In this document: in pieces, positions 28,701 to 46,958 of the stretch | Layout of the letters: each line of letters begins with the position of its first letter | Numbering within the stretch: position 1 is the stretch's first letter | NCBI RefSeq assembly: GCF_000217995.1 | Contig: NC_015676.1 | Location: forward strand, 186,001 to 250,000 | Direction of reading: 5' to 3' | Origin: Methanosalsum zhilinae DSM 4017 | GTDB taxonomy: Archaea > Halobacteriota > Methanosarcinia > Methanosarcinales > Methanosarcinaceae | Length of the DNA stretch: 64,000 nt | Program-made: the position numbers and the translations under genes | Notes under the pieces: model-generated | Told to the model about the DNA's origin: nothing | The model's database searches: none | What the model saw: only the letters and a program-made list of their open reading frames with translations

Positions 28701-31700
28701 GAGATTTTATGGATACTGGAATGATGGTAGTGGCTGCAGTCTGCCTCAATCCGGATCCTGTTCCATCAGTATCAGTGATGATTCAGAGGAAGCTGAAATA
28801 GGTGGCATAAGATGGGGCAGGAAGAATGCGGATATCTGTAGCAGGTACTTTGGTGGAATTGATCAGAATGATCGTATCATTGAGCTGATGACAAAAATGC
28901 GTGACATGGAGTCCCATGTGCTTCTTGTTGGAGAAGCGGGTACTGGCAAGGACTGGCTTGCCCTTGCCTATGGCGAGCTTATGGGTGAGGAACCTGTGGT
29001 GGTCTCACTGTCAGAGGAGGTGGAGGGCCAGGAACTGATCGCATCCAGAGGACTTGAGGAAGGGATCACGGTCTGGGAATACAGTCATATTGTAGAAGCC
29101 TATGAAAGGGGCGAGATTATAATTATTGATGAGGTGACCCGTACCAGACCGGGTGTTCGTGCAATTCTCAATGAGATCATGGAATCTCCTGAACTTGAAA
29201 TGCCTGATGGCAGGTGGGTCCAGAGGGGTGAGGGTTTCCAGATAATTGCTACCATGAATGAGGTTAAGGAAGGATATGAGGGCTATGAGCTTGGCGAGGA
29301 CTTTGAGGACAGGTTTGGTGCTATTATTGAGGTACAGGAACTGGCAAAGACTGAAAAGATGAATTTTTTAAGAAGAGTGGCCCAGGGAAGGCTGCCGGAT
29401 ACAACCCTGTCCCAGCTCATCGATTTTCAGGAAGAGGTGAATTCCAGCAGTGATGTATGGAGAAAACTGTCCCTCAGGGTCCTTGAGAGAATTGTTGAAA
29501 TGAAGACAGAGTATCCGGATGAGAGAATTGGTGATATTATACTCTCAGAGTTTATGATAGGGGAGTGGGAAAGTGGAAGAGGTACTGTTGAAAAGATGAT
29601 AGCAGCACTGCCTGAAGAGCTGGCAGGAAGAAGTGACTGGACAATTGGCAACAGTATTGAATATCCAGGATCACAGGCATTGGAAATGTCATTTTCTGAT
29701 GATGGCCATATTCTTGCTGTTCTGGACCGCTCGGGATCTGTATATGTATCCAGGATCCATCCTGGAAAACAGATGCAATGGCAGAAACTTGAAAGAGATT
29801 CTGATTATAAGGACTCTCTGATACTTTCTGGTAACGGGGACTTTATCGCAGTAAAAGGAGAGTACAGGGCTGCTGATATCTGGCAGAAATGTGGTGAATC
29901 CTGGAAGAGAGTAGATGTATCCATGGAACACGCAGGAAGAATTTCAGGGATATATCCTGCCTATGATGGACGCTGTTTTTTTGTAGTTACTTACAGGGGA
30001 GCGGTACTTGTATGGACCAGGGATGAACACGCAAACTTTGAAGGAGAGGGTGTACTGCTAAAGGAAGAGGGTACCAGGATCAGATTTGGTTCTCTTGCGG
30101 GAGACAGTGAGGTGTTTGCTGCAGGAGATGATGAGGGTACTGTCAGAGTCTGGTACAGGTCCAGAGAAGGTGACTTTTCAGCAGATTATATGGAATCAGC
30201 CAGACCAGGGGATGTCATGACAGCAGGCAGCTGGTCACCGGATTTACAGGTTCTTGCATGTGCAGGACTTTCAGGCAATGTATATGTGATGTATAGAAAA
30301 AAAGATTGCAGCCATGGTGAATGGAAGCGACTGGAGGGGCCAGGACAGGATATGGTGTTCTGCTCATGGTCTGGAAATGGTGATTATCTTATTGCAGGTG
30401 GTGGCAGGGGAGAGATTTTCCTCTGGTGCAGGTATGATCTGGTCAATATCCCTGGAAAGAGACTTGAAGGGCCTTCAGGGGATCTCACACAGTGTACCCG
30501 GTCTGCAGATTCATCAACCATTGCAGCCACCGGCCATGATTATAAGGTCTATTTATGGGGTGTAAAATCAGGATCCTGTGAAGTTGTTGCCAGTGAACTT
30601 AAAGTATCTGATAACCTGCAGAGAATGCAGAGGATATGGCTGTCTGAAAACGGGCAGTATCTTATAGGACACTCCATGAATGGGGGCATCTATATGTGGT
30701 CCAGGTCGGTTCACAGTGGCTGGAGACCTGAGTACAGCAGATTGTCCTGTGCAGGTGAATGCAGTGAATTCCTGAGCTGTGAATACTTGAAAGAGCATGT
30801 TTTTGCAGCAGATGAGAGTGGTGGTCTGTACCAGTGGACACTTCCTTCCCGGGGTCTAGATGTTCTGGAATCTGCTCTGGAAAACGCTGAACAGGAGAGT
30901 CTTGCTCCGGAGATTGGTAATGACCTGCTGGTTAGTGGCAGTGTGAGCCTTGAGAGAGAATCCAGAGAACAGGATGATAAAGCTACATTTGATTATTTAT
31001 CAAAACAAACTCCTTCAAATGACCGGACCCTGCACAGGATCATGATGGGACTTGCACTGAATCGCAATATTCTTCTGGTGGGTCCTGTGGGATCAGGTAA
31101 GAGCTGGATTGCCAAGTCAGTTTTCGGTTTGCTCAACAAGAGGATTGAGCACATGTCCCTGCACGAGGGTTCTACAGAGCTTGATCTTACTGCCTGGCAG
31201 AAAACTGAGAGACGGGGTCGGGATATATCCCTGGAGATGGAAATCTCACCTCTTGTAAGAGCTGCTATAGATGGCAGACCCTGTGTAATTGAGGGGGTTA
31301 ATCGAATCTCCTCAGGTGTTCTGGCAGTGCTCAACCATGCCCTGCAGTTTAAGGAGATAATTCTTCCAAAGCGTATCAGGATAGGTTCTGAAATGACTGA
31401 TACCATAAAGGCAGAAGAGGGATTCCAGCTGGTTATGACCGCCATTCCTCCTGGAGGCCTTGTGGATGTAAATCCTTTCATGGCGGATTTTATGGACCGA
31501 ATGTTCACAGTTGAGGTTGATTACCTGCCACCATCAGAGGAGGCAGGGCTGCTGGAAGGTATCTGGCACAATGAAAGTAATGAACAGGTTGATCCCGGGA
31601 CAGGCAGAATGATCAGGGAGCTTGTGGAAATGGCTGATCGCAGACGCAGGCTTGCCCGCCAGAACTTCAGGCGTACCATTACCACAAGGACACTTGAGAG

Positions 31701-34700
31701 GGTTATCAGGTTCAGACAGAAATATCCTGGAATCCACTGGATGGACATACTTGGCATGATGTGCGGTGTTGAGGGTGCTGTGGACCAGGAGCAGATAAGG
31801 GTGTGGAAGATCGGATGGGAGGCAAAGTTTGGAGAGCAGGATCAGCTGCTCCCTGCACCGTTGATCGTCCTGCACAGTGACAGAAACAGGGTGACCATAG
31901 GTGATCTTACCTGGCAGCGAATGGATACTGATGTAGAGTGCAGATATATTGAGGGAATTGATCAGAATGACCGTATCATTGAGCTGATGGCAAAGATGCG
32001 TGACATGCAGTCCCATGTGCTTCTTGTTGGAGAAGCGGGTACAGGCAAGGACTGGCTTGCCCTTGCCTATGGCGAGCTCATGGGTGAGGAACCTGTGGTG
32101 GTTTCACTGTCAGAGGAGGTGGAGGGGCAGGACCTGATAGCAATGAGAGGCTTAAGAGCAGGCATTACTGTCTGGGAATACAGTCATATTGTGGATGCTT
32201 ATGAGAATGGCAGGATCGTTATTCTGGATGAGGTGACCCGTGCAAGACCAGGAGTTCGTGCAATTCTCAATGAGATCATGGAAGCTGAAAGGCTTGAGAT
32301 GCCTGACGGCAGGTGGATCCAGAGGGCGGAGGGTTTCCAGATCATTGCCACCATGAATGAGGTCAAGGAAGGATATGAGGGCTATGAGCTTGGCGAGGAT
32401 TTTGAGGACAGGTTCGGTGCTATTGTTGAGGTACAGGAACTTCCGGAATCTGAGAAGAGAAAGTTTCTTGAACGGGTTTCCAGGGACAGGGTTAACAGTG
32501 GAATACTGGACTCTCTTTTAAAGCTTCAGGAAACTGTGAATTCAGAGGAGACTGTATGGCGGAGAATGTCCCAGAGAGTACTGGAGCGGATTGTGGAAGA
32601 TATTGCCAGATATCCTGATGAACCGCCTGAAGACATTATTCATTCTGAATTCATGCTGGGTGAATGGGAGGAGGGGTACGGATATGTTGTGGATGCAGTA
32701 GAATCAATGGTTTGCAGTCTCGGGAATGTACGGGTTAATGGTAATAAATCTAAAAAACCGTCTCCTGTATACATAGATGACCTGCTGGTCAGCGGAGATG
32801 TCCGGCTGAAGGTGGGCAGTGAGCCTGATACCTGCCCTGACCCTGAATATGAATATCATGATAAACAGACCCCTTCCAATGATCGTGTTCTGCACAGGAT
32901 ACTGCTGGGCATTTCAATGAACCGCAATGTGCTCCTGATAGGGCCTTCAGGATGCGGAAAGAGCTGGATGACCCGGGCTGTGTTCAGGCTTTTGAGAACC
33001 AAGATTGAACATATGTCTCTGCATGAGGCAACAACAGTACAGGATCTGACTGTCTGGCAGAAGACTGTGAGAAGAAAGGGTGAGATGTTTATAGAACTTG
33101 AACTATCGCCTCTGGTACGGGCTGCTGTTGAGGGCAGGCCGTGTGTTGTGGATGATGTGAACAGGGCATCTCCCGGCGTGCTGGCAGTTCTCAACCATGC
33201 CCTGCAGTTTAAGGAGATTGTGCTTCCCAGAGGGATTGAGGTATCAGATGCTGGTATTCCTTCAGGAAGGGATGTGCGCAAAATCAGGGCAAAGGAAGGA
33301 TTCCAGCTGATAATGACTGCAAATGTACCGGAGGATGGCAGTGGTGTGAACCAGATGATGGCTGATTTTATGGATCGGATGTATTCTGTTGACATGCATT
33401 ATCTGCCACAGTGTGAGGAAACGGATCTCATGATGGCAATCCTGGGTTTTGAGGACAGAAATATGCGCAATGAACTTGAGCTTCTGGTTGATTTTGTGAA
33501 TTATCTTAGAGAAAGTGGTGAAGGTCCCACTTTCAGGAGCATGGAGAGAATTGTAGAAAACCTGAGGACCTATCCATACCAGGATATCAGGTTGCTTCTT
33601 GAACGTGAACTGAGAATCGGGTTCAGGTCTGAGGAGGAACAGGAGATGTTTACAGAGTTTATGGAATCATGTAATCTGGATAGGGCTCTCAGGTCTGTGT
33701 ATGAAAATCCAGTATCTGGCTGTACATGGAATGAGCTTATCTATCACGCTTTTGATATTTCACTACCAGTGTCCATGGATGACCTGAATTCATATGATCC
33801 TGCAAGATGGTGGGAAGCAGGAGATCCTGATGATTATCAGCAGGCAAGGGCAAGGAAGAGGTACAGGATACTTGTGAAACTGCTGCACATGGTCACAGGA
33901 CTTGATATTTCCCTGAATCCCTGGTCAAAGGCCAGGGTTTTAGATAAAGATAAGCCTTCATGGGGTTGTGTTTTTGATCGACGGTCCAGGATGGTGAAGG
34001 AGGTATTTTTCTCACCATGGGATATTATTTACAGGGAAGATGAGCAGAGTCTGTACGGACTGCTGTTCCATGAGATATTTGAGATACTCTACCGCAGGCC
34101 GGCTGCATTTGATGAAGAGTTTCTATCAAAACCTGGTGCCAATGCTCTTATCAATGGTATAGGTGATATCTGGATAAATCGCAGGGGTATGAGTGAGTTT
34201 CCTGGAACCAGAAAATGGATAATGGCACTCTACAGGCAGAGTATGGATTCAGGAGAATATCCTGCTCTGGCCTATCTCCAGTTCATTTCTGCAGTTGTGT
34301 ATGAATGGATATTCCAGGAGAGGGATCCCAGGGTAGCTGACAGGGATGTTATCAATGCACTTGATTCTCTGAGGGAGACTTTTGAGAGAATATACAGTAC
34401 AGACAGTGAAGATGAATATATCAGCCTGATTCACCGGCTTTACAGTTGCAGGGATTTCCAGTACCTTGTAGAGAAATCGGTTGAGGAGAAGGTCAGAATG
34501 CAGGGAATTGATCTCTGGGCCGGTGACTGGAAGATGGCTGGAGGTGTCAGAGAGGATCTTTTAAGGAGTGCAGCTGCCGGAATGGTTGAGCAGGAGAGGA
34601 CAGGTGGTAAAGCTGTGGATGAGAATGGAAGACAGCTCAACCAGAAGGAACTTGAGGAGCTTCGCAGGGCTTTGCTGGAATCTGTGAGGGCAGCCAGGGA

Positions 34701-35562
34701 AGAGCTTGAGCGCCTTGACGAGGAGAGGGAACAGGAACGTGTGGAGGCTGAACTTAAGAGGGCTGAGATTGCAAGGGAGGAGAGGGAACTTGAAGGAATC
34801 TCTGAGAAGGAGCAGCAGGAGTATTCTCTAAGATATGAGAAGGTTTCGGAACATATCAAGCAGATGAGGGAGAGATTCAGGGAGATATACAGGCATGAGA
34901 GGGGTGTTTGGAAGCGCCGACTGTCCAGGGGCAGACTTGACAGTACACAGCTTGCGTCCCTTGTTGCAGGAGATGACCGGGTGTTCATGAAACGGGAACA
35001 GCCTGAGAGGTATATGGTCCGGATTTCTCTGCTGGTGGATCAGAGTGCCAGCATGCAGGGTGAGAAGATCGATCATGTGGCTGATGCTGTCCTGATGCTG
35101 CTGGCTGCTATACAGAGGGATCAGAGAAAGGGAGTTCAGGTGGAGGTTGTGGGATTTCATGATGACAGTCCAATGGAGATATATCTTAAGTATGGTGAGA
35201 AGATCACCAAGAAAAAGATTATCAGGGTTGTCAATCAGGTGGCAGGGACAATGGGTCGAAACAATGACCTGCAGGCAATATACTATGCCTTTGAGAGGAT
35301 CCCTTCTGCAAGTAAAAGGGCCCTGAACCTTATCATCCACTTCTCTGATGGTGATCCCAACCAGCAGTTCGATCGTGACCAGTTCAGGGATCTTATTAAC
35401 AGAAATCCCCATATCAACGTCGTTGGGTTTGGGATTGGAGGTGAGGGTGCTGATTTTGTACTGGACCTGTATCCTGAGGGCCAGGCAGCAACTGCTGATA
35501 ATGCTTCTGAGATACCTGAGAAGCTCAGCTCACTCATACAGGGATATGTGAGAAGACGCTGA
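25777..35562 (+). CDS. Giant midasin-like protein: six AAA+ modules, WD40-type insert, metallopeptidase-like segment, VWA
   Basis: 3261 residues in one uninterrupted frame. Order: unique N-terminus (1-290); AAA1 (Walker A Lys327, Walker B D387-E388); short beta insert (~560-650); AAA2 (K744, D808-E809); AAA3 (K1058, D1118-E1119); about nine WD40-type repeats (1288-1691); AAA4 (K1775, Walker B changed to E1839-G1840); AAA5 (K2091, D2151-E2152); AAA6 (K2395, D2459-D2460); a region with HEIFE (H2765) and GDIWIN (D2797); charged coiled coil (~2950-3045); VWA domain with MIDAS D3088-x-S-x-S and FSDGD. AAA1, 3 and 5 are one family (GTGKDW, EGQ[ED]LIA, NEIME); AAA2, 4 and 6 another (GKSW, SLHE, SPLVRAA, VLNH). 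Six AAA+ units plus a C-terminal VWA is the midasin plan, and MoxR-VWA pairs do similar remodelling in prokaryotes. No signal peptide, so it should be cytoplasmic. Function and client unknown. Confidence 0.9.
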   Translation: MDLSGSSHIPCENEIIKHLSSISDGRIPDTFFCSLLDSDSFHSVTHSNRFQNLLFEIFGSLSAGPPVNFDRIRAEIPENDMVASVQNVDSGVAVEHTGHWNVLRNNDGWELIRIYTGSSDIVVRFEELACDVLEEFCEECREFRLIILRGMGPRVFMDHDRAILYADLLAMADEIYLKYCLRRELHLWKYPSSNLKDAIMDSLKWVRSIGRSLDIFFETLSIVYGVECSTGSDDDTIADSIISRFYSQGTDRKIAGRIHYCPDETGQPWIIMDSQVRYPLSTKIPDIDCLNSVRKWTSRGLDIIHEMIRARSLGENVLLIGDAGTGKDWLAMMYGRIMGEDPIVVSLSEDMEGQELIASRGLEAGLTVWEYSQIVNAYVNGRIIILDEVNKTRPGVCAILNEIMEAPELEMPDGSWVSRCEGFQIIATMNEAGEEYGGYDIDPDFRDRFATLIQVDELDKNQRIEFLRKVSHSIVPRKFIEDLISLQDTINNSGQVWRKMSLRVLERIIEARRRYPAESLASLISSEYMIGNWEKGHGFVNSEVQGFATDMERNFRSSILFSFRRGQNVRDPSGQRELRVVLVEGRVWLCCKCPDGIQAEPLSGPIHPVSTVNVSTDQNMILAIAGSQIWVWYTVDGVIWIAEGIDLSDPASPQCSGSTTDLSNPINIGSQTASTLPAPILKNSSLVSGSIRIPAGNESDDCPGPVYGYYEKETPTGNRILHQVLLGLSMDRNVLLVGPVGTGKSWLSKAVFRMLEKKVEHMSLHEGTTVQDLMVWQKTVRVKDELSLELELSPLVRAAVEGRPCIVDEVNRASAGVLAVLNHILQFREVILPKRIQIDGKLTDRLRVRQGFNLIMTMNPPQQHLEVNRMLADFMDRMYCVRVDHLPPDEELGMLKMIWEHAGGLVDGSVERDLEILVRIASETRKEAEEYIRPISTRALERMVHFRQKYPDHQWADILCMMTGIEGAVDQKRRQRFYGYWNDGSGCSLPQSGSCSISISDDSEEAEIGGIRWGRKNADICSRYFGGIDQNDRIIELMTKMRDMESHVLLVGEAGTGKDWLALAYGELMGEEPVVVSLSEEVEGQELIASRGLEEGITVWEYSHIVEAYERGEIIIIDEVTRTRPGVRAILNEIMESPELEMPDGRWVQRGEGFQIIATMNEVKEGYEGYELGEDFEDRFGAIIEVQELAKTEKMNFLRRVAQGRLPDTTLSQLIDFQEEVNSSSDVWRKLSLRVLERIVEMKTEYPDERIGDIILSEFMIGEWESGRGTVEKMIAALPEELAGRSDWTIGNSIEYPGSQALEMSFSDDGHILAVLDRSGSVYVSRIHPGKQMQWQKLERDSDYKDSLILSGNGDFIAVKGEYRAADIWQKCGESWKRVDVSMEHAGRISGIYPAYDGRCFFVVTYRGAVLVWTRDEHANFEGEGVLLKEEGTRIRFGSLAGDSEVFAAGDDEGTVRVWYRSREGDFSADYMESARPGDVMTAGSWSPDLQVLACAGLSGNVYVMYRKKDCSHGEWKRLEGPGQDMVFCSWSGNGDYLIAGGGRGEIFLWCRYDLVNIPGKRLEGPSGDLTQCTRSADSSTIAATGHDYKVYLWGVKSGSCEVVASELKVSDNLQRMQRIWLSENGQYLIGHSMNGGIYMWSRSVHSGWRPEYSRLSCAGECSEFLSCEYLKEHVFAADESGGLYQWTLPSRGLDVLESALENAEQESLAPEIGNDLLVSGSVSLERESREQDDKATFDYLSKQTPSNDRTLHRIMMGLALNRNILLVGPVGSGKSWIAKSVFGLLNKRIEHMSLHEGSTELDLTAWQKTERRGRDISLEMEISPLVRAAIDGRPCVIEGVNRISSGVLAVLNHALQFKEIILPKRIRIGSEMTDTIKAEEGFQLVMTAIPPGGLVDVNPFMADFMDRMFTVEVDYLPPSEEAGLLEGIWHNESNEQVDPGTGRMIRELVEMADRRRRLARQNFRRTITTRTLERVIRFRQKYPGIHWMDILGMMCGVEGAVDQEQIRVWKIGWEAKFGEQDQLLPAPLIVLHSDRNRVTIGDLTWQRMDTDVECRYIEGIDQNDRIIELMAKMRDMQSHVLLVGEAGTGKDWLALAYGELMGEEPVVVSLSEEVEGQDLIAMRGLRAGITVWEYSHIVDAYENGRIVILDEVTRARPGVRAILNEIMEAERLEMPDGRWIQRAEGFQIIATMNEVKEGYEGYELGEDFEDRFGAIVEVQELPESEKRKFLERVSRDRVNSGILDSLLKLQETVNSEETVWRRMSQRVLERIVEDIARYPDEPPEDIIHSEFMLGEWEEGYGYVVDAVESMVCSLGNVRVNGNKSKKPSPVYIDDLLVSGDVRLKVGSEPDTCPDPEYEYHDKQTPSNDRVLHRILLGISMNRNVLLIGPSGCGKSWMTRAVFRLLRTKIEHMSLHEATTVQDLTVWQKTVRRKGEMFIELELSPLVRAAVEGRPCVVDDVNRASPGVLAVLNHALQFKEIVLPRGIEVSDAGIPSGRDVRKIRAKEGFQLIMTANVPEDGSGVNQMMADFMDRMYSVDMHYLPQCEETDLMMAILGFEDRNMRNELELLVDFVNYLRESGEGPTFRSMERIVENLRTYPYQDIRLLLERELRIGFRSEEEQEMFTEFMESCNLDRALRSVYENPVSGCTWNELIYHAFDISLPVSMDDLNSYDPARWWEAGDPDDYQQARARKRYRILVKLLHMVTGLDISLNPWSKARVLDKDKPSWGCVFDRRSRMVKEVFFSPWDIIYREDEQSLYGLLFHEIFEILYRRPAAFDEEFLSKPGANALINGIGDIWINRRGMSEFPGTRKWIMALYRQSMDSGEYPALAYLQFISAVVYEWIFQERDPRVADRDVINALDSLRETFERIYSTDSEDEYISLIHRLYSCRDFQYLVEKSVEEKVRMQGIDLWAGDWKMAGGVREDLLRSAAAGMVEQERTGGKAVDENGRQLNQKELEELRRALLESVRAAREELERLDEEREQERVEAELKRAEIAREERELEGISEKEQQEYSLRYEKVSEHIKQMRERFREIYRHERGVWKRRLSRGRLDSTQLASLVAGDDRVFMKREQPERYMVRISLLVDQSASMQGEKIDHVADAVLMLLAAIQRDQRKGVQVEVVGFHDDSPMEIYLKYGEKITKKKIIRVVNQVAGTMGRNNDLQAIYYAFERIPSASKRALNLIIHFSDGDPNQQFDRDQFRDLINRNPHINVVGFGIGGEGADFVLDLYPEGQAATADNASEIPEKLSSLIQGYVRRR

Positions 35563-36041: not shown

Positions 36042-36830
36042 TCAGAGCATATAGACCTCTTCGTTTGGATGGATGACTATTCCCTCTGAGGTTATGTCAT
36101 AGGGGTGAAGTTTTTTGCTGTGATCTGAACCACGCATCTTGTAGACCTCGATGCTTCTGGAGCGTACATTGTCCTGCCTGTGGTAATTGAGCATTATTGT
36201 ACCTTCGGTCACGAAATTCTCCACTCCAAACCTTGAGACCTCGTTCTCATAGAGGGTTTCACAGGTCATCATTGACGTCAGGCCAAGTATCTCCAGGGTT
36301 GCACTAAGTTTTAGAAGCTCCACCCTGATCTTTGGCGGGTCCTGTATCTGGAATCCAAGGGCTGTACTGGAGTCTATGAGTGCACGTTTTGCATTGGTCT
36401 CTTCCTGGGCTGTAATGATCTGATCGATCATTGAACGCATGTCGAAGGGTCGCACATCCACAAATTTTTCCTGGGACGGAATTCCAATCTTTGTGGAGCT
36501 GGCATCAATAATGGCCAGCTTGCCTTCATCTTCCAGTGCTTCCAGATCCCAGCCGAAGGTGGCAACGTTTTCCCTGATATGCTCGGGTTTTTCCTCGGTG
36601 GCCACTATGAGTCCGTTTTCATTATATTTTACAATACCATTGTAGATGAACTGGATTGCAAAGTTTGTCTTTCCGGCACCGGAATTCCCGGAGACCAGGT
36701 AAGTGCGGTCACGCAGCATTCCGCCTCCGCATATATCATCAAAACCCTCTATTCCGGTCTTGACCCGGTTTGCCTCATCACCCATTGAAATGTTTTCGCC
36801 GAAACTGTTGCCAGGGATATTATCAATCAA
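36042..36830 (-). CDS. KaiC/RadA-like single-domain ATPase
   Basis: 262 residues. KaiC-type RecA fold: RVKTGIEGFDDICGGGMLRD, Walker A SGNSGAGKTNFA, then GLIVATEEKPEHIRENVATFGWD and a Walker B region ALIDSSTAL. Archaeal genomes carry many such single-domain KaiC homologues with signalling roles that are mostly unknown. TTG at 36830 is preferred as start because AGGAGAG stands 6 nt upstream; ATG 36785 is the alternative. Confidence 0.85.
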   Translation of the reverse strand: MIDNIPGNSFGENISMGDEANRVKTGIEGFDDICGGGMLRDRTYLVSGNSGAGKTNFAIQFIYNGIVKYNENGLIVATEEKPEHIRENVATFGWDLEALEDEGKLAIIDASSTKIGIPSQEKFVDVRPFDMRSMIDQIITAQEETNAKRALIDSSTALGFQIQDPPKIRVELLKLSATLEILGLTSMMTCETLYENEVSRFGVENFVTEGTIMLNYHRQDNVRSRSIEVYKMRGSDHSKKLHPYDITSEGIVIHPNEEVYML

Positions 36831-37090: not shown

Positions 37091-37204
37091 TGTCGATAAA
37101 ATCAACGGTATTTGCATTCAAAAACTTTAAAAACAATTAAAATGACCACAAAAGATTTAAAACTAAAGGCAATATCTGTATCTGTTACTCAATATGACGG
37201 GATT
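37091..37204 (+). promoter_or_regulatory. S-layer gene 1 promoter with conserved leader element
   Basis: Three elements recur before all three S-layer genes. TGTCGATAAAATCAACG starts at 37091; BRE/TATA GACCACAAAAGATTTAA is at 37144-37160; CAATATGACGGGATT is at 37190-37204. Transcription would begin close to the third element, giving a leader of about 200 nt before ATG 37387. Unlike the other two copies, the AGGAGGGTGA and mini-ORF that follow the third element are missing here. Confidence 0.7.
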
Positions 37205-37386
37205 TTAACGGGGGAATATCATATTTCGACAATACATGTCAGTAAGCCTGTTTTTTTACTGCGTGAATTGTCCGGACATATGATCTTCACGTGTACACAG
37301 GATGTACACACTCACACCTCCAGTAAATCCGGGGTACATAACTGAATAAACTAATAGAATAAACCAATCCAAATGGGGGAAACTAA

Positions 37387-39867
37387 ATGAAAAAAATAGC
37401 AATTACGCTGGTTGCCCTGATGCTCATGTCACTGTTTGTGGCTGGCTTTGCCAACGCAGACAATGACTATCTTGAAGAACTTGAGATCAGGGGACCCGCC
37501 TGGAATTTAACAGGCGCAGATGCAAATGAAATATTCGTCGCGAATGCAACTAATTTTGCTGGCTTCTGGTATGATATCGATGATGATGAATCCAGTGAAG
37601 AACTCTGGATATATAAGAACAGAACTACAGCCAGAACTCTGGGTGATGACCCAAGTGCTGTAGAATATATATCCACTGTAGTCCCAGGAATAAAACCTGA
37701 ATTTGATTTCAGGGATCCTGACAACGCATCTGAATTATTTACATATGAAAAAATCGGATTCCTTGCAGAGGAATATGTTCCAATTGCACAGGGACAGACC
37801 GACAAGCTATCAAAACTTTTGATGGACTCTGATACAAGGTACACTCTGCGTACAGGTCAGACACTGGAACTTGCAGATGGCTATGCAATCACACCACTGC
37901 AGATCGATGTAGATGGTAACAAGGTCTGGCTTGAATTGACAAAAGACGGTGAATTCCTTGATGATAAGATCATTGATGTAAGGTCAGCTACAGGTGCTCA
38001 GGCAAGTCAGGCCAAACAGGACCGTACCTGGTACTATGAACAGGACATAATGGATGAGGATGATATTCTCACACTGATGGTTCATGTAGAACAGGTCTTC
38101 CAGGGTACTGTTGACAGTCTTGTTGTAATTGAGGGTATCTGGCAGATCGAAGATGATGGTCTTGAACTTGAAACAGGTGACAGATTCGGTAGAATGGAAA
38201 TTGATGATGTTGGTGACAATGTAATAAGAATGGCACTTGATACAACCATCACACTCAGACGTGACAGTACCCAGCACCTTATGCAGGATCTGTACTTTAG
38301 AGTCGCAGACGATGCTGCCAACATTAGATTCTACCTGATGCAGCGTATCACAGAGCCTGGTACCTATGAGGTCAGAGGAACAGTTGCAAATGTAACTGCA
38401 ACAGAATGGTTCAACTGGACTGCAACTGGATTTGATGTTGCGGGTCTGGAAGGTATGGTGACTGAAGGTTATTCATTTGCTGGTTTCTGGTATGATCTGG
38501 ATGAAGATCTGCATTCAGAACTTCTGGCAGTTCATGTCGATGACAGAACCCTCCGTGCAGATGATGATGAAGTGGTCTACTATTCCAGAATACAGGAAGG
38601 TCTGGACCCTGAATTTGATTTCAGAGACCCTGACAACGCAACTGAACCGTTCAAATATGAGAAAATCGGATTCCTTGCAGATGAATATGTTCCAATTATT
38701 CCAGGACAGACCGACAAGCTATCAAAACTTTTGATGGATTCTGATACAAGGTACACTCTGCGTACAGGTCAGACACTGGAACTTGCAGATGGCTATGCAA
38801 TTACACCACTTCAGATTGATGTAGATGGTAACAAGGTCTGGCTTGAACTTACCAAAGACGGTGATTTCCTTGATGATAAGATCATTGATGTAAGGTCAGC
38901 TACAGGTGCTCAGGCAAGTCAGGCCAAACAGGACCGTACATGGTACTATGAACAGGACATAATGGATGAAGATGATGTTCTCACACTGATAGTTCATGTA
39001 GAACAGGTCTTCCAGGGTACTATTGACAGCCTTGTTGTGATCGAAGGTATCTGGCAGATTGAGGACGATGGTCTTGAACTTGAAACAGGTGATAGATTCG
39101 GTAGAATGGAAGTTGATGCTGTTGGTGACGATGAAATCAGAATGACACTGGATTCCAACATCAACCTGAGAAGAGACAGCACCCAGCATGTAATGGGCAA
39201 CATCTACTTCAAGGTTGCAGATTCTCCTGACATCAGATTCTACCCATTCGTGGAGAGAACTGTAGGCGAACCGGTAGTACCTGTTGACGAAGAACCAGTT
39301 GCAGCATTTACTGCAAATCCAACAAGAGGTGTTGCACCACTGACTGTAACCTTCACTGACCAGTCAGAGTATGCAGTGAACTATCTCTGGGACTTTGGAG
39401 ATGGTACAACCTCAACTGATCCAAGCCCAACCCATACCTATGAGGAAATTGGTACATACACTGTCACACTGACAGTTACCAATGATGTAGGCGAGGACAG
39501 TGCAGAGAGGACAATCACAGTTACTGAGGAAGAGATCCTTGAACCTGTAGCTGCCTTTACAGCACAGCCACAGGAAGGAGAAGCTCCACTTACTGTGACC
39601 TTCACTGACCAGTCTGAGCATGCAGTAAGCTACCAGTGGGACTTTGGTGATGGTACAACCTCAACCGATGCAAGCCCAACCCATACCTATGAAGAGGCAG
39701 GCGAGTACACTGTCACACTGACCGTTGAGAACGAGATCGGTGAAACAGATTCTGCACAGAGGACAATCACAGTCCAGGAGCCAGAACCAACACCCGGCTT
39801 TGAGATCGTGTTTGCCATTGCAGGAATTCTGGCAGTTGCCTTCCTTGTGAAAAGGTACAGAAAATAA
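37387..39867 (+). CDS. S-layer protein 1: tandem S-layer domains, two PKD domains, PGF-CTERM
   Basis: 826 residues. Signal peptide ([20 protein letters not shown]...A, cleavage near residue 24); two copies of the Methanosarcinales S-layer domain (about 30-330 and 335-635), each with [10 protein letters not shown]- or [10 protein letters not shown]-like, [12 protein letters not shown] or KIGFLADEYVPI, and VEQVFQGT motifs; two PKD domains (~640-720 and 722-800, WDFGDGTTSTD); and a tail TPGFEIVFAIAGILAVAFL followed by KRYRK, a PGF-CTERM sorting signal for archaeosortase and lipid attachment (family knowledge). It forms or decorates the surface lattice. AT-rich leader and strong terminators frame it as a monocistronic unit. 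Confidence 0.94.
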   Translation: MKKIAITLVALMLMSLFVAGFANADNDYLEELEIRGPAWNLTGADANEIFVANATNFAGFWYDIDDDESSEELWIYKNRTTARTLGDDPSAVEYISTVVPGIKPEFDFRDPDNASELFTYEKIGFLAEEYVPIAQGQTDKLSKLLMDSDTRYTLRTGQTLELADGYAITPLQIDVDGNKVWLELTKDGEFLDDKIIDVRSATGAQASQAKQDRTWYYEQDIMDEDDILTLMVHVEQVFQGTVDSLVVIEGIWQIEDDGLELETGDRFGRMEIDDVGDNVIRMALDTTITLRRDSTQHLMQDLYFRVADDAANIRFYLMQRITEPGTYEVRGTVANVTATEWFNWTATGFDVAGLEGMVTEGYSFAGFWYDLDEDLHSELLAVHVDDRTLRADDDEVVYYSRIQEGLDPEFDFRDPDNATEPFKYEKIGFLADEYVPIIPGQTDKLSKLLMDSDTRYTLRTGQTLELADGYAITPLQIDVDGNKVWLELTKDGDFLDDKIIDVRSATGAQASQAKQDRTWYYEQDIMDEDDVLTLIVHVEQVFQGTIDSLVVIEGIWQIEDDGLELETGDRFGRMEVDAVGDDEIRMTLDSNINLRRDSTQHVMGNIYFKVADSPDIRFYPFVERTVGEPVVPVDEEPVAAFTANPTRGVAPLTVTFTDQSEYAVNYLWDFGDGTTSTDPSPTHTYEEIGTYTVTLTVTNDVGEDSAERTITVTEEEILEPVAAFTAQPQEGEAPLTVTFTDQSEHAVSYQWDFGDGTTSTDASPTHTYEEAGEYTVTLTVENEIGETDSAQRTITVQEPEPTPGFEIVFAIAGILAVAFLVKRYRK

Positions 39868-39876
39868 ACTAAATTC

Positions 39877-39925
39877 GGATGAATGATTCATCCTGAAGGG
39901 ATAATAAATCCCTTCAATTTTTTTT
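39877..39925 (+). terminator. Double hairpin terminator after S-layer gene 1
   Basis: GGATGAAT-G-ATTCATCC (39877-39893) is followed by GAAGGGAT (39895-39902), loop, ATCCCTTC (39908-39915) and eight T. The second is a perfect intrinsic-type terminator. Confidence 0.75.
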
Positions 39926-40423
39926 AATAAACTTTTCTTATTATATTCCAATCAGATTCTAATCTACATCTTCAGGTTTAATATCCTGAAAGATCAATAG
40001 TTTGAATAAAATATCCATTGGTTCTGATATCTCCGAATTTGCATATTCCTGCTGAAATATGGTAGATCGGTTTTTGAGATATTATTGCATTCTCATTTTA
40101 AGCTGTAATCTACATGATAAATCTATTATTGGTTCATATTTAATTCTAAGTTCCTTTTTATGTTCAATAAATGCTTATTTTTTGAAAATAAGATTAATTT
40201 TGGGCGTAAAATACTTTTAATACGAATCAGTTATTCCGATATTTGTGTGGTTCAAGTTCAGGGAAGGTGGTATCAATAAGTGAAATCTGCGATACGGGAG
40301 AGATATCTTAGCAACATCAACTGCGACAGAAAACTGTTGCAGGCTGATCGAGAAAAAGGCAAGACTGAGATGTAGCCATGTACATAACATGGGTAATGAG
40401 AGTAATGCCGGAGGTGTTTGTAT
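39926..40423 (+). other. Gene-free leader region of the small PGF-CTERM gene
   Basis: AT-rich and without ORFs at first. A TATA-like ACTTTTAATA lies near 40212-40222, so the following gene has a leader of ~180 nt, as the S-layer genes do, but without their conserved element. The hairpin CCATGT-ACATA-ACATGG (40376-40392) stands just before the ribosome-binding site GGAGGTG (40410-40416) and could influence translation. Confidence 0.4.
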
Positions 40424-40663
40424 ATGAAGAAAATGTTTAAAATGACACTTGCAGTACTGCTGGTCCTTATTGCAGCAGCCGGTACTGCTGCAGCAATAGA
40501 TGGCGAGGTTCCCCAGGCCCAGGACGATTTCGAGGATGACCTGATGGATCCTGAAGATATGCTGGGGGATGAAGAAATCCCTGAACAGCCTGGCTTTGGT
40601 GTAATAGTTGCCATCATGGGATTGTTTGCAGCAGCAGTACCGGCTGCACTCAGGCGCCGTTAA
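40424..40663 (+). CDS. Small secreted acidic protein with PGF-CTERM tail
   Basis: 79 residues. Signal peptide MKKMFKMTLAVLLVLIAAAGTAAA, then only ~32 residues, strongly acidic (DDFEDDLMDPEDMLGDEE), then PGFGVIVAIMGLFAAAVPAA and RRR, a PGF-CTERM sorting tail. After signal and sorting processing hardly more than an anionic peptide linked to the membrane lipid would remain. GGAGGTG at 40410-40416 fixes ATG 40424. Function unknown; its position between two S-layer genes suggests an envelope role. Confidence 0.8.
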   Translation: MKKMFKMTLAVLLVLIAAAGTAAAIDGEVPQAQDDFEDDLMDPEDMLGDEEIPEQPGFGVIVAIMGLFAAAVPAALRRR

Positions 40664-40745
40664 GGTCAGCCTGGACAGAACTGCCAGATGAAAAGTCAAA
40701 TATAAATCCTACCCCCGTCCCTCCTTTTTTTGTGGGCTGAACAGA

Positions 40746-40787
40746 CCGGTCAGTTTTTCCAAAGTTTACTGACTGGCTCTTTTTTTA
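40746..40787 (+). terminator. Terminator after the small PGF-CTERM gene
   Basis: CCGGTCAGT (40746-40754) pairs with ACTGACTGG (40768-40776), nine pairs with one G-U, followed by seven T at 40781-40787. Confidence 0.65.
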
Positions 40788-41196
40788 ATACCATTCAGTA
40801 ACCATCAATTAGCATTTTCACCTGCGCATCAAATTCACTGCGATTTTGCCAGAACTATTTTGTTGAACTAAGAATGCTGCTCATTTTGTACCTATCGTCG
40901 AACAGGCCTGAAAATATGCTGCAGAAAGAAACTCTGCGGTTTATGCTTATTTGCAGATCCTTATTGATGTATATCCCACCTCAAAAAATCACAGATCATA
41001 ATCCAATTTGCAACTTTACTGTTAGTCCTATTTTTTTGCTTCCTGTACCCATTTTGAATAAGTTAAAATAAAGCTGAAAAGATGAATATAGGTTAATTTA
41101 TGACTCTTATTCAATTTATACAAAATAATCTGCATGATAACGTTATTATGGGTAATATTTCAATCAATAAACCTTCTATAAGTATATTTAGGCACA
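40788..41196. other. AT-rich gap before S-layer gene 2
   Basis: About 400 bp with no convincing ORF, repeat or RNA. It may hold upstream activator sites for the promoter that begins at 41197. Confidence 0.4.
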
Positions 41197-41342
41197 TGTC
41201 GATAAAAATAACGTTTTTTAACGCTAAAAATGACAAAATAAGCTCAAATAGACCACAAAAGATTTAAAAATCGACCTAATAAATGGATACATTGCAAATC
41301 CAATATGACGGGATTAGGAGGGTGAAGATGTCCTTTCGGTAG
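41197..41342 (+). promoter_or_regulatory. S-layer gene 2 promoter, leader element and mini-ORF
   Basis: TGTCGATAAAAATAACG at 41197, GACCACAAAAGATTTAA (BRE/TATA) at 41251-41267 and CAATATGACGGGATT at 41301-41315 repeat the set before S-layer gene 1. Directly after it AGGAGGGTGA (41316-41325) leads to ATG 41328 and a four-codon frame, Met-Ser-Phe-Arg-stop (41328-41342). The rest of the ~187-nt leader carries no longer ORF. Confidence 0.7.
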
Positions 41343-41487
41343 CAGACATCTGTGACCGGAAGATCAGATTGCGCCTCCAGGCGCTTTAAAATCATATTTT
41401 AATCTCACCAAAACTCCGAAACGCAACCACATAAAAACGAAAATAAAACAAAACTATTCCCAAAAAATAACGGAGGAAAAATTAAAA

Positions 41488-44160
41488 ATGAGAAAATTAG
41501 CAATCACACTGGTTGCCCTGATGCTCATGTCACTGTTTGCAGTCGGCGCCGCCACAGCAAACAACGACGATTACGTCGACGAACTTGAGATCAGAGGACC
41601 GGTATGGGACTTTACATTAACTATAGAAGAAGTTGATGCTCCAAACAACAATACAACTTTGAAAACATTTGGTGATTGGAGAGATCTTAAAATAGATTCG
41701 GACACATTCAATACTAGTGCAAATTTTAATGTCTCCGGTGAACTGTTTTCAGGAACTGAGTTAGATGCAGCGCAAGTGGAAAATAATGTGACAAACATGA
41801 CACTTGTCGCAGATGCACAGAACTTCGCTGGCTTTTGGTATGATATAGATGATGGTCTTTCCAGTGAGACTCTGACACTTTATGTCAACAAAACTAGCGG
41901 TGACAGGACACTTGATGATGACGACTCAGATGTTCTTGTCTATGAATCAAATGTACAGGGTGTAAATGCTACATTTGAATTTAATGGGAATGTATACCAA
42001 TATCCAAAAATTGGATTCCTTGCAGAAGAATATGTACCTGTTGAGTCAGATGGACCCCTTGTAGAATATGATGGACAAGGTGTCTTCGGTGATGTAGACA
42101 AACTGAGCAGACTTCTCATGGACACTGATGACAGCTGGACTCTCAGAGTTGGTGAGACTCTGGATCTTGAAGATGGCTACGCCATTGAACCACAGCAGAT
42201 TGATGTTGAAGGTGATAAGGTATGGCTTGAACTCACAAAAGATGGAGAGTACGTTGATGATGAAATCATTGATGTAAGTGATAGCAACGACACTACCTGG
42301 TTCTATGATCAGACAGTACTTGACGAAGATGATGTCGTTACACTTGCAATAAGTGTAGATCAGGTCTTCCAGGGAACTGTTGACAGTCTTGTTGTCATTG
42401 AGGGTGTATGGCAGATTGCTGATGATGGTCTAGAAATTGAAACTGATGACACATTTGGAAACATGGCAATTGAATCTACATCTGATGCCCAAATAATAAT
42501 GGAACTTGACTCTTCCATAACACTTAGACATGATACTACAAGAAATGTCATGGAAGATCTCAAGTTCAGAATGGCTGATGACAGTGATGTCCTCAGATTT
42601 TATCTGATGCAGGAAGTCACAGAACCTGGAATTCATGAGGTAAGAGGTACTGTAGTTGACTTAGAGAAAGATGGTGGCTACTATCAAGATGCTGTAAGCT
42701 GGACTGCAACTGGATTTGATGTTCCAGACCTTGAGGAAGGTGTAGCTCCTGAAGGATTCTCATTTGCAGGATTCTATTACGACCTTGATGACAACCTGCA
42801 CTCAGAAATGCTTACAATAGTTGAAGTTGAACGGTCACTGAGTGACACAAGCGCAAGCGATAATCCTGGCATTGAATATTACAGCCAGCCACAGATAGTA
42901 GAATCAACTTTTGACTTTGATGGTGAAGAGCGCTACTATCCAAAGATCGGATTCCTTGCAGAGGAATACGTGCCTGTTTCAGATGAACTGCTGACAACTG
43001 AAGAAGCTGAACTGGAAGGAACATCTGTAGACAAACTGAGCAAACTGCTCATGGACACAGATGACAGCTGGACTCTCAGAGTCGGTCAGACACTGGACCT
43101 TGAAGATGGCTATGCCATAACACCACAGCAGATTGATGTTGACGGTGACAAGGTCTGGCTTGAACTGACCAAGGACGGTGAATATGTTGATGATCAGATA
43201 ATTGAGGTTGGAGATGAATCCACCTGGTTCTATGATCAGACAGTCCTTGATGAGGAAGATGTTACAACACTTGCAATAGATGTTGATCAGGTCTTCCAGG
43301 GAACTGTTGACAGCCTTGTAGTAATTGAAGGTGCCTGGCAGATTGCAGACGATGGTATGGAACTTGAAACAGACGACGCATTCGGCAAGATGGTAGTAGA
43401 GAGTGCAGATGACAATATTGTAATGACACTTGACACATCACTCACACTCAGAGCCGACAGCACACAGCATCTGATGGGCGACATCTACTTTAGAGTCTCT
43501 GATTATTCAGACTTTGAAACAGATGCAAGATTCTACCCATTCGTTGAGAGAACAGTCGGCGAACCTGTGGAGCCTGTTGAGGAAGAGCCTGTAGCATCCT
43601 TTACAGCAAACCCAACAAGTGGTGCTGCACCACTGGAAGTGGCATTCACTGATCAGTCAGAATATGCAGTTGACTACAGCTGGGACTTTGGAGACGGTGA
43701 GACCTCAACCGAGGCAAGTCCAACCCATACCTATGAAGAAATTGGTACCTACACTGTCACACTGACAGTTTCCAATGAAATAGGTGAGGATACTGCAGAG
43801 ACCACAATCTCAGTCACAGAGGAAGAGATCCTTCCACCGGTAGCTGCCTTTGATGCACAGCCACTGGAAGGAGAAGTTCCACTGACTGTGACATTCACTG
43901 ATCAGTCAGAGAATGCAGTAGCCTATGAATGGGACTTTGGAGATGGCACAACCTCAACCGATGCAACTCCAACCCATACCTATGAAGAGGCAGGCGAGTA
44001 CACTGTTACACTGACCGTTGAAAACGAACTCGGTGAGACAGATACTGCCCAGACCACCATCACTGCAACTGAACCAGAGCCAACACCAGGCTTTGAAGCA
44101 ATCTTTGCAATTGCAGGAATTCTGGCAGTCGCCTTCCTTGCAAGAAGGTACAGAAAATAA
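41488..44160 (+). CDS. S-layer protein 2: tandem S-layer domains, two PKD domains, PGF-CTERM
   Basis: 890 residues. Same plan as protein 1: signal peptide ending near residue 25, two S-layer domains (~30-385 and ~390-695, each with [12 protein letters not shown] and the VDQVFQGT strand), two PKD domains (WDFGDGETSTE and WDFGDGTTSTD), and the tail [20 protein letters not shown] plus RRYRK. It is larger mainly by an insertion of ~40 residues early in domain 1 (TIEEVDAPNNNTTLKTFGDW). Strongly acidic. CGGAGGAAAA precedes the ATG. Confidence 0.94.
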   Translation: MRKLAITLVALMLMSLFAVGAATANNDDYVDELEIRGPVWDFTLTIEEVDAPNNNTTLKTFGDWRDLKIDSDTFNTSANFNVSGELFSGTELDAAQVENNVTNMTLVADAQNFAGFWYDIDDGLSSETLTLYVNKTSGDRTLDDDDSDVLVYESNVQGVNATFEFNGNVYQYPKIGFLAEEYVPVESDGPLVEYDGQGVFGDVDKLSRLLMDTDDSWTLRVGETLDLEDGYAIEPQQIDVEGDKVWLELTKDGEYVDDEIIDVSDSNDTTWFYDQTVLDEDDVVTLAISVDQVFQGTVDSLVVIEGVWQIADDGLEIETDDTFGNMAIESTSDAQIIMELDSSITLRHDTTRNVMEDLKFRMADDSDVLRFYLMQEVTEPGIHEVRGTVVDLEKDGGYYQDAVSWTATGFDVPDLEEGVAPEGFSFAGFYYDLDDNLHSEMLTIVEVERSLSDTSASDNPGIEYYSQPQIVESTFDFDGEERYYPKIGFLAEEYVPVSDELLTTEEAELEGTSVDKLSKLLMDTDDSWTLRVGQTLDLEDGYAITPQQIDVDGDKVWLELTKDGEYVDDQIIEVGDESTWFYDQTVLDEEDVTTLAIDVDQVFQGTVDSLVVIEGAWQIADDGMELETDDAFGKMVVESADDNIVMTLDTSLTLRADSTQHLMGDIYFRVSDYSDFETDARFYPFVERTVGEPVEPVEEEPVASFTANPTSGAAPLEVAFTDQSEYAVDYSWDFGDGETSTEASPTHTYEEIGTYTVTLTVSNEIGEDTAETTISVTEEEILPPVAAFDAQPLEGEVPLTVTFTDQSENAVAYEWDFGDGTTSTDATPTHTYEEAGEYTVTLTVENELGETDTAQTTITATEPEPTPGFEAIFAIAGILAVAFLARRYRK

Positions 44161-44195
44161 GTTAAAAATGTCAGGATTGGATAATGATCCTGTAA

Positions 44196-44241
44196 AGAGA
44201 AGGGTATAACATTATAAACCCTTCTCTAATGCTATTTTTTT
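44196..44241 (+). terminator. Terminator after S-layer gene 2
   Basis: AGAGAAGGGT (44196-44205) and ACCCTTCTCT (44218-44227) form a perfect 10-bp stem followed by seven T. Confidence 0.75.
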
Positions 44242-44598
44242 AAAATAATCTGTTTTTAAATTCTAAAATCATGCGCATTTTAGTTTCTGACTTAAATTTC
44301 TAATTAAACATCTTTTATCCAGTATTCCAGTACATCTACCAAAAACACAACATTATATATAATGCATTAAAGTACTGATATCAGTTCAAATATTGCCAAA
44401 TCTGTACATGGAATCTTTTATCCAGATGATAGTTTCAGAACATAATCACTATCTATCGAACTCATCAAATTCAATTTTATCTGCAACACAAACTCCAAAA
44501 TTTGAAACTTTCTGCAATTTTGTAAGATTCGACAATTTCCAAACAGAATTCTGATCATCATCTTGAGTATAAATACAAAACCCCAAAAATACGTCTTT
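44242..44598. other. Gene-free stretch before S-layer gene 3
   Basis: Some 360 bp of AT-rich DNA without ORFs or clear repeats, ending in the conserved promoter of the next gene. Confidence 0.4.
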
Positions 44599-44744
44599 TG
44601 CCGTAAAAATAATCGTTATTTGTCTCCAAAATCCGGGAAAAATCTCCAAAGAGACCACAAAAGATTTAATAACCAAATGTGAATCTTTGAAAGATAATCC
44701 AATATGACGGGATTAGGAGGGTGATGATGTCATCCAGGCAATAA
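44599..44744 (+). promoter_or_regulatory. S-layer gene 3 promoter, leader element and mini-ORF
   Basis: TGCCGTAAAAATAATCG at 44599, GACCACAAAAGATTTAA at 44653-44669 and CAATATGACGGGATT at 44700-44714 repeat the set of genes 1 and 2, the first two elements being 54 bp apart as in gene 2. AGGAGGGTGATG follows, then a short frame Met-Met-Ser-Ser-Arg-Gln-stop (44724-44744). Its second Met lies at the same distance (27 nt) from the leader element as the mini-ORF of gene 2. Confidence 0.7.
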
Positions 44745-44879
44745 CCCGAAAAATATTGCCAGGATTTATGATTGCACCACAGTGTGCAACAGATCATATT
44801 TTTCATCTCACCAAAACCACACACACAACAACAAAACAAAAAACGAAACTATTCCCACAAAAAAAGGAGGATAAAAAAT

Positions 44880-46958
44880 ATGAGAAAATTAGCAATCACA
44901 CTGGTTGCCCTGATGCTCATGTCAGTGTTTGCAGTTGGCGCTGCCACAGCAAACGACGACAAACTAGAGATCAGAGGACCGGTATTAGATTTTGAAACTG
45001 ATATTATGGACAATTTTGCTGATTGGAGAGGTAATGACTCTTTATGGCAGAATGGAGTTAATTATGAAAATGCATCTTTTGTCATGAATGCAAGTAACTT
45101 TGCAGGATTCTGGTATGACTTGAGTGAAGATGATTCAAGTGAAACAATTACTCTGAATGTAAATGCCACCACTGGTGAAAGACAGTTAAAAGATGAAACT
45201 GATTCACTGGTATATGTTTCAGAACCTGTAGAAAATATTGAACCGTCTTTCACCTTTAAAAAAGATGGATATAATTTCAACTATTCCAAGATCGGATTCC
45301 TTGCAGAGGAATACGTACTCATTGACGCTGATGATGTAAGCAAACTGTCCAAGCTTCTAATGGACACTGATTCAAGCTACACTCTCAGAACAGGACAGAC
45401 ATTCGAACTTGATGAGGGCTATGCTATCACACCACTGCAGATCGATGTAGATGGTAACAAGGTTTGGCTTGAGTTGACTAAAGACGGTGAGTTTGTTGAT
45501 GACAAAATCATTGATGTTGGCAGCAATGCAGGCACAGAAGACAAAACCTGGTTTTATGATCAGACAGTCCTGGATGAGGAAGATGTAATCACTCTTGCAA
45601 TCCATGTTGAACAGGTCTTCCAGGGAACTGTTGACAGCCTTGTTGTAATCGAGGGTATCTGGCAGATTGCAGACGATGGTCTGGAATTGGAAACAGATGA
45701 TTCATTTGGAAAGATGGAAATAACAAGTCTTGAAGATGCAATTGAAATGAAACTTGCTTCATCCATCACACTGAGAAAAGACAGCACACAGCACCTTATG
45801 GAAGATCTCTACTTCAGAGTTGCAGATTCTGATGCACTCAGATTCTATCTCATGAAAGAGATAACAGAACCTGGCACCTATGAGGTTAGAGGTACTGTTG
45901 TTAATGAATCTGGTACATTTAACTGGACTGCAACAGGTACAAACGTGCCTGGTATGGGTCTCAGTGTAACACCTGGATATTCATTTGCTGGATTTTTCTA
46001 CGATCTGAATGAAAACCTTCACTCAGAGATGCTTTCAGTAGCTGCAACCGATGGTAGAAACTTAGCTGAAGCTGTTGATGCTGTTAAGTATTACAGTACA
46101 ATTCAGTATCCAATAGATCCAGCTTTTGAATTTAAAGAAGAAGATGGCAGTGATTTTGTTTACTCCAAGATCGGATTCATGGCAGAGGAGTATGTACCTA
46201 TAGTCAATGAATCTGCTGACAAGCTATCCAAGCTTCTAATGGACTCTGACACAAGATACACCCTACGTACAGGTCAGACACTTGAGTTTGATGAAGGCTA
46301 TGCAATCACACCACAGCAGATCGATGTTGATGGTAACAAGGTCTGGCTTGAGCTCACAAAAGACGGCGAGTATGTTGATGACAAGATCATTGATGTAAGC
46401 AAACCTGGAGCATACAACAAAACCTGGTTCTATGATCAGACAGTCCTTGATGAAGATGATGTAATCACACTTGCAATTCATGTCGAACAGGTCTTCCAGG
46501 GAACTGTTGATAGTCTTGTTGTTATCGAAGGTATCTGGCAGATTTCAGACGATGGTATTGAACTTGAAGCTGGGGATACCTATGGCAAGATGGAAATCGA
46601 CAATGTTTCAGGCGACACCATAGAAATGGCTCTTGATTCATCCATAACACTTAGAAGAGACAGCACACAGCATCTGATGGGTGAAATTTACTTCCGTGTT
46701 GCAGATTCAACCGATGTCAGATTCTACCCATTCGTGGAGAGAACTGTTGGTGAACCAGTAGCTCCAGAGCCTGAGCCAGAGCCTGAGCCAGAACCTGAGC
46801 CAGAGCCTGAGCCAGAGCCTGAACCAGAGCCTGAACCAGAGCCTGAACCAGAGCCTGAGCCAGAGCCTGAGCCAGAGCCTGAGCCAACACCTGGATTTGA
46901 AGCAATCTTTGCCATTGCCGGACTTCTGGCAGTTGCATACTTTGCAAGAAAACTTTAA
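44880..46958 (+). CDS. S-layer protein 3: tandem S-layer domains, Pro-Glu repeat stalk, PGF-CTERM
   Basis: 692 residues from ATG 44880, fixed by AAGGAGGAT 7 nt upstream and by the signal peptide [20 protein letters not shown]; a longer open frame upstream is leader. Two S-layer domains (~30-340 and ~345-625) as in proteins 1 and 2, but both PKD domains are replaced by about 40 residues of alternating Pro-Glu before the PGF-CTERM tail ([20 protein letters not shown], then RKL). The stiff, anionic PE stalk would hold the lattice domain away from the membrane. Confidence 0.94.
46762..46881 (+). repeat. Pro-Glu coding microsatellite (6/12-bp unit)
   Basis: Near-perfect tandem copies of a CC(T)GAGCCAGAG-type 12-mer, itself two PE codon pairs, with only silent GAG/GAA variation. 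The tract encodes the stalk of S-layer protein 3. All three length-changes that keep the frame are easy by slippage because the unit is a multiple of 6 bp. Confidence 0.9.

Follow-up and report, generated by a model that had tools for sequence, protein, structure and literature searches.

The closest described counterpart of the control region treated here belongs to slmA1, the dominant surface-layer (S-layer) gene of Methanosarcina. Rohlin et al. (2012; PMC3361143) reported a promoter and leader conserved in three Methanosarcina species (MA0829, Mbar_A1758 and MM1976), mapped the S-layer mRNA 5' ends to 159 nt (MA0829) and 154 nt (Mbar_A1758) before the ATG, and noted 'several potential RNA secondary structures' in the leader, the role of which they called unknown; the protein family was known in few organisms. 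One paralogue, MA0829, was expressed far above the rest, with the next at 3.5% and 1.8% (PMC3361143). We analysed a stretch of 64,000 nucleotides from Methanosalsum zhilinae DSM 4017 (NC_015676.1, positions 186,001 to 250,000), hereafter the window, in which three tandem S-layer genes each carry a cassette composed of an upstream box, a 17-bp promoter core (the 17-mer), a 15-nt element (the 15-mer) and a structured leader RNA. As at slmA1, a conserved TATA region precedes a PF07752 (DUF1608) gene encoding a signal peptide and a C-terminal anchor. The promoter and leader are homologous to those of slmA1, the dominant S-layer gene, whose mRNAs have mapped 5' ends lying on the element. Added here to the Methanosarcina account are an order-wide range, a covarying three-way junction and a conserved upstream box, together with a triplication in Methanosalsum and the placement of the leader before a different surface-protein family.

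Bacterial S-layer mRNAs such as those of Lactobacillus slpA and Thermus slpA have long structured leaders linked to stability or autoregulation; no homology to the archaeal leader is expected. Among methanogens, the mRNAs of Methanolobus psychrophilus have long 5' untranslated regions (UTRs), and mtaA and mtaC leaders are cited as stabilising transcripts in the cold (PMC5378194). These too are long leaders of abundant methanogen mRNAs, for which a stabilising effect is reported, but no shared sequence or structural family has been shown for them, whereas the S-layer leader is one specific conserved fold. Six leader loci had no match at or above the gathering threshold in Rfam 15, the region of the window gave subthreshold chance matches only, and no account of this RNA family turned up in the literature searched, within its limits. 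What appears to be new is the order-wide RNA with its fold and its tie to a second surface-protein family.

Our preferred reading, to which we assign a probability of roughly 0.55, is that this is an ancient cassette of the dominant S-layer gene of the Methanosarcinales and that the leader works in cis, making the mRNA very stable and its translation efficient. As judged from sequence, there is a cassette, it is conserved and its leader has a covarying structure; the 5' end and the dominant expression are established by published data on orthologues, which rank with the most highly expressed genes of the cell.

The preliminary description of this DNA had placed shared elements before the three S-layer genes, and a search of the window returned the 15-mer (CAATATGACGGGATT) and the 17-mer (GACCACAAAAGATTTAA) as exact copies at the same three places (Table 1). 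Its spacings (53, 54 and 54 bp from the upstream site to the 17-mer, then 46, 50 and 47 bp to the 15-mer) were accurate, as was its leader of about 180-200 nt, the distance from element to ATG being 197, 187 and 180 nt for copies 1, 2 and 3. For gene 3, the ATG at 44880 was taken as the start rather than the longer open reading frame (ORF) from a TTG at 44772. The upstream site, which had been reported before all three genes, is exact (TGTCGATAAAA) in copies 1 and 2 only, and copy 3 reads TGCCGTAAAAA. This site lies at the distance of a family-wide conserved box, TTCGACATTTnCCGTnAAATnCATCGATATTT, and to judge by that distance TGTCGATAAAA is the Methanosalsum form of part of the box. None of 100 shuffles gave three 17-mer matches, even with three mismatches allowed. 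Across both strands of the 2,138,444-bp genome the 15-mer has three sites only at up to one mismatch, and the 17-mer pattern has three matches with no fourth. Pairing with a trans-acting small RNA was also considered and rejected, as no close complement of the element was found elsewhere on either genome strand.

The same order of parts, namely the upstream TTCGACATTT..ATCGATATTT box, the 17-mer, the 15-mer and a leader of 115-200 nt, recurs about once per genome across the Methanosarcinaceae, almost always before one S-layer gene, and at the loci inspected that ORF encodes a signal peptide. The exact 15-mer is found in 50 of the 185 genomes of the order, with zero matches to the reversed control, and occurs once per genome except in G000 (three copies) and G077 (two). 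One of the two copies in G077 (L010) was treated as a chance occurrence, since the 17-mer promoter is missing and no S-layer-like ORF lies close by. Among the 111 genomes of the family, 87 have the 17-mer pattern, usually once each, and these cover 12 of the 14 genera; M. acetivorans carries the same 17-mer as the window. In a weighted profile of about 17 effective sequences, the box upstream of the 17-mer reads TTCGaCATTT.cCGt.AAAtacATCGaTaTTT and keeps a fixed distance from it; the distance from the 17-mer to the element is 46-50 bp (59 in one locus with an insertion). Of the dedicated S-layer regulon that had been proposed, the dedicated promoter stands, but it is not specific to these three genes, relatives being mostly single-copy.

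Some loci depart from this pattern. At L081, L093, L094 and L096, in a few genomes of the family, the 17-mer, exact or nearly so, precedes an orthologous methyltransferase-like gene without the S-layer leader; either the same factor may have a second target here, or the match may be to an ordinary TATA region. In one genus (L074, in G103) the 17-mer promoter is retained but the S-layer gene is preceded by another leader, which does not match. A contig (L041, PWGE01000152.1), labelled as the bacterium Candidatus Sumerlaeota, encodes a Methanosalsum-like S-layer protein, and this label is probably due to binning contamination.

Published mapping in Methanosarcina places the element at the start of the mRNA, as the preliminary description had supposed: the 159-nt position in M. 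acetivorans coincides exactly with the first base of CAATTTAGAGGGAT, which is homologous to the 15-mer, and so does the 5'-end position in two Methanosarcina genomes whose leaders are 154 nt long, so that the ends agree in two Methanosarcina species. The mapped ends are those of Methanosarcina only; in the window the position homologous to this conserved C is present, with leaders of 180-197 nt, compared with 115-197 nt in relatives. M. acetivorans has 20 PF07752 domain matches and one cassette locus, the 159-nt leader of which matches MA0829, and by published expression the cassette gene is the one highly expressed paralogue. In M. burtonii the cassette precedes an S-layer protein of 677 aa, the length listed for Mbur_1690, the homologue detected in culture supernatant. 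Three paralogues carry the cassette in the window, compared with the one dominant paralogue of M. acetivorans.

When leaders from different genera are folded one by one, the same three-way junction results, in which a closing stem, P1 (GAGGGUGA with UCACUCUU), encloses a conserved hairpin, P2, around CUUCGGCAA and a variable hairpin, P3; an A-rich linker, the Shine-Dalgarno (SD) sequence GGAGGA and the ATG follow. In alignments fitted to the structure, so that the figures lean towards it, 87.4% of pair cells are standard among 60 leaders, with 241 two-sided changes versus 82.5 when shuffled and a covariation score of 0.338 versus 0.174 shuffled and at most 0.078 slid, and 58 wider-spread leaders show 312 two-sided changes versus 112 shuffled and at most 66 in slid controls, with a score of 0.390 versus 0.182 shuffled and at most 0.090 slid. 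The single-sequence folds and the z-scores against shuffles are independent of the structure-fitted alignment, and the latter average -2.46 for leaders (n=65), compared with -0.33 for upstream DNA and -1.11 for coding sequence. RNAalifold on a sequence-only MAFFT alignment of 31 leaders returned no junction, with P2 and P3 misaligned, and a covariance-model alignment was used instead. A further hairpin, P0 (AAUCC with GGAUU), looked good in single folds, had no two-sided change in 58 sequences and did not rise above shuffles; it lies partly upstream of the published 5' end and was omitted from the model. P3 is entirely absent from one genus (L055, L100), and within the window the leader of copy 1 is the weakest and most diverged of the three, its P1 having diverged. 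As far as comparison of sequences can tell, the leader is a conserved structured RNA with compensatory changes above control. This much of the post-transcriptional control suggested earlier is upheld, and a role of the leader in mRNA stability is plausible.

The depth of the RNA was followed with successive covariance models. Model R1, made from six Methanococcoides-type leaders, found leaders of other genera, and R2 gave single matches in 14 genomes of three other families. Those inspected lie upstream of S-layer-type ORFs, mostly with the same promoter, the exceptions being matches where the contig end was reached or no long ORF followed the leader; the three proteins tested from other families match PF07752. 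With R3 the leader was found in 128 of the 185 genomes of the order, which cover 19 of 27 genera and four families including Candidatus Methanoperedens, mostly in one copy each. Many of the matches in the family are non-independent, as their own leaders went into the model. When R3 was applied to 391 genomes sampled from the phylum, it matched only two genomes outside the order, both of one genus (G245 and G267), and these matches, unused in model building, provide an independent test. In both of these genomes, which are about 1 Mb in size, the leader (L138, L139, L147) precedes a secreted surface protein, of 720 aa in G267, that has no PF07752 match and ends in a manner like PGF-CTERM. Leader and promoter therefore seem tied to a surface-layer role and not to one protein family. 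Some Methanosarcina-type genomes have a second, weaker leader before a second S-layer paralogue (L132-L137), and two of these (L132, L133) are without the 17-mer promoter.

The three tandem ORFs of the window are intact and all encode two PF07752 domains and a PGF-CTERM anchor. Gene 3 has 63-65% identity to genes 1 and 2, whereas the elements are identical. The M. zhilinae genome has 17 PF07752 domain matches, with the cassette at the three tandem genes only. M. natronophilum likewise has three tandem genes beside the same formylmethanofuran-dehydrogenase-type neighbours, with two full cassettes and a third that has diverged, and the Methanosalsum paralogues group together in the S-layer protein tree (support 100/100); the triplication therefore belongs to the genus Methanosalsum. 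Since the cassette is single-copy in most relatives, where it stands before one S-layer gene, the three copies represent a Methanosalsum duplication, and the S-layer gene would have been triplicated together with its cassette inside the genus. Upstream of the S-layer cluster is a giant ORF of 3261 aa in which MoxR/GvpN-like AAA ATPase modules are repeated, accompanied by beta-propeller-like stretches and, C-terminally, a VWA-like region, and a KaiC/RecA-like ATPase gene is divergent from S-layer gene 1.

Table 1. Features of the S-layer cluster and its cassettes (window positions; R2 and R3, covariance-model scores)
Feature	Position	Strand	Description
Upstream box copy 1 (TGTCGATAAAATCAACGGTATTTGC)	37091..37115	+	fixed distance from 17-mer, conserved family-wide
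17-bp promoter core (BRE/TATA-like) GACCACAAAAGATTTAA copy 1	37144..37160	+	exact; family pattern
15-nt element CAATATGACGGGATT copy 1	37190..37204	+	first base corresponds to mapped Methanosarcina S-layer mRNA 5' end
Structured leader RNA copy 1	37184..37294	+	21.7 bits R2, 34.2 bits R3; fold z -2.9
S-layer gene 1	37387..39867	+	826 aa: signal peptide, two PF07752, two PKD, PGF-CTERM
Upstream box copy 2	41197..41221	+	conserved box at fixed distance
17-bp promoter core copy 2	41251..41267	+	exact; family pattern
15-nt element copy 2	41301..41315	+	exact; homologous to mapped Methanosarcina 5' end
Structured leader RNA copy 2	41295..41407	+	three-way junction; 52.2 bits R2; fold z -3.7
S-layer gene 2	41488..44160	+	890 aa: two PF07752, two PKD, PGF-CTERM
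Upstream box copy 3 (TGCCGTAAAAATAATCGTTATTTGT)	44599..44623	+	conserved box at fixed distance
17-bp promoter core copy 3	44653..44669	+	exact; family pattern
15-nt element copy 3	44700..44714	+	exact; homologous to mapped Methanosarcina 5' end
Structured leader RNA copy 3	44694..44810	+	three-way junction; 54.8 bits R2; fold z -2.5
S-layer gene 3	44880..46958	+	692 aa: two PF07752, Glu-Pro linker, PGF-CTERM
Giant ORF	25777-35562		3261 aa
KaiC/RecA-like ATPase gene	36042-36830	-	

In the mechanism that we favour, a promoter made of an upstream activator-like box and a near-invariant core of transcription factor B recognition element (BRE) and TATA box would start the transcript at the 15-nt element or up to about 10 nt before it. 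The transcript would continue through P1, with P2 and P3 enclosed, to the A-rich linker, GGAGGA and ATG; the 5'-terminal element and the junction would shield the mRNA 5' end, possibly via a bound protein, and the junction would lock an internal SD-like sequence, GGAGGGUGAU. This cis role in stability and translation is suggested because the leader starts at the 5' end of an abundant transcript, and because P1 holds the SD-like sequence while the true SD lies outside the junction. Several points weigh against it. The position of the leader and the abundance of the transcript are all from which we infer stabilisation and enhanced translation. The centre of the TATA-like box is about 34 bp from the mapped 5' end, where a distance of about 26 bp is usual, and the true start may therefore be some 8 nt farther upstream; the element sits at the 5' end of the transcript under either position. 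In M. acetivorans the junction is not the single-sequence optimum (z -0.65), and Methanosarcina retains P2 but its P1 seems paired differently or rearranged. The main SD is predicted to be only mildly accessible (0.54 unpaired versus 0.46 overall). A regulatory switch, in which binding of a protein (an unexported S-layer precursor or an RNA-binding protein, perhaps) or of a small ligand to the 5' element and junction tunes synthesis to the state of secretion or of the envelope, is a possibility that we entertain tentatively. Binding sites typically have an invariant unpaired element beside a conserved junction, P1 is predicted to sequester the SD-like GGAGGGUGAU (0.21 unpaired), another lineage has the leader before a different surface-protein family, and 29 of 31 sequences keep a competing hairpin (GAGGG with CUUC). 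That hairpin has no two-sided changes, however, and the main SD is not locked, lying outside P1-P3 in the consensus structure, which is not the arrangement of an SD-sequestering riboswitch or thermometer; S-layer expression in Methanosarcina was moreover high on the substrates tested (PMC3361143). Speculative, and in our estimate rather unlikely, is the broader proposal of an undescribed, archaea-specific regulatory RNA class, found throughout the order and in another lineage, that senses the envelope or secretion state, sets S-layer synthesis and was kept while the S-layer protein family was exchanged.

That the 15-mer acts in DNA only, as the initiator of a very strong promoter or as its downstream promoter element, is favoured by three observations: it begins exactly at the published 5' end, conservation extends to the four bases before it (AATC), and the TATA-like core lies at a nearly constant 46-50 bp from AATCC. 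The distance from AATCC to ATGACGGG, however, varies by 0-5 nt between families and the covariation extends 100 nt downstream, which makes this account improbable. At +5 of the element is also the ATG of a short, near-leaderless upstream ORF with the pattern MTG[LFS][GR]G-stop, the UGA of which often overlaps a second AUG, and control of S-layer translation by reinitiation or by ribosomes shielding the 5' end could be imagined. The six-codon ORF and its UGAUG overlap are present in most genera, with shorter forms in slp1 (MTGF*) and in one M. natronophilum copy, but Methanosarcina and sister genera lack the start codon, and the frame of the second ORF differs among close relatives and is disrupted by indels. 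At synonymous sites the first three codons never vary, whereas residues 4-5 do, and therefore the nucleotides are conserved and not the peptide. A conserved leader peptide is made unlikely by this conservation at the nucleotide level and by the lost start in Methanosarcina, and it was rejected; a translational role for the upstream ORF strikes us as quite improbable. Least credible of all is mutually exclusive use of the three genes as a switching set, which the preliminary description had raised. The paralogues do differ in C-terminal architecture (PKD versus a Glu-Pro linker) under identical control elements, but every gene has kept an intact promoter and leader of its own, all in one orientation, three tandem genes, one of them with a diverged cassette, are found in M. 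natronophilum as well, and there is no sequence sign of exclusivity.

To our knowledge, few structured cis-acting RNAs native to archaea are known. The remark made in 2012 on the role of the UTR can now be recast as a testable structure, and the cassette offers a ready, strong expression leader for archaeal genetics. In methanogens and their methane-oxidising relatives the leader belongs to one of the most abundant mRNAs, and it is nearly single-copy per genome and kept over several families. Among the many S-layer-like genes of these archaea, including those of uncultured Methanoperedens-type lineages, it flags the probable main coat protein.

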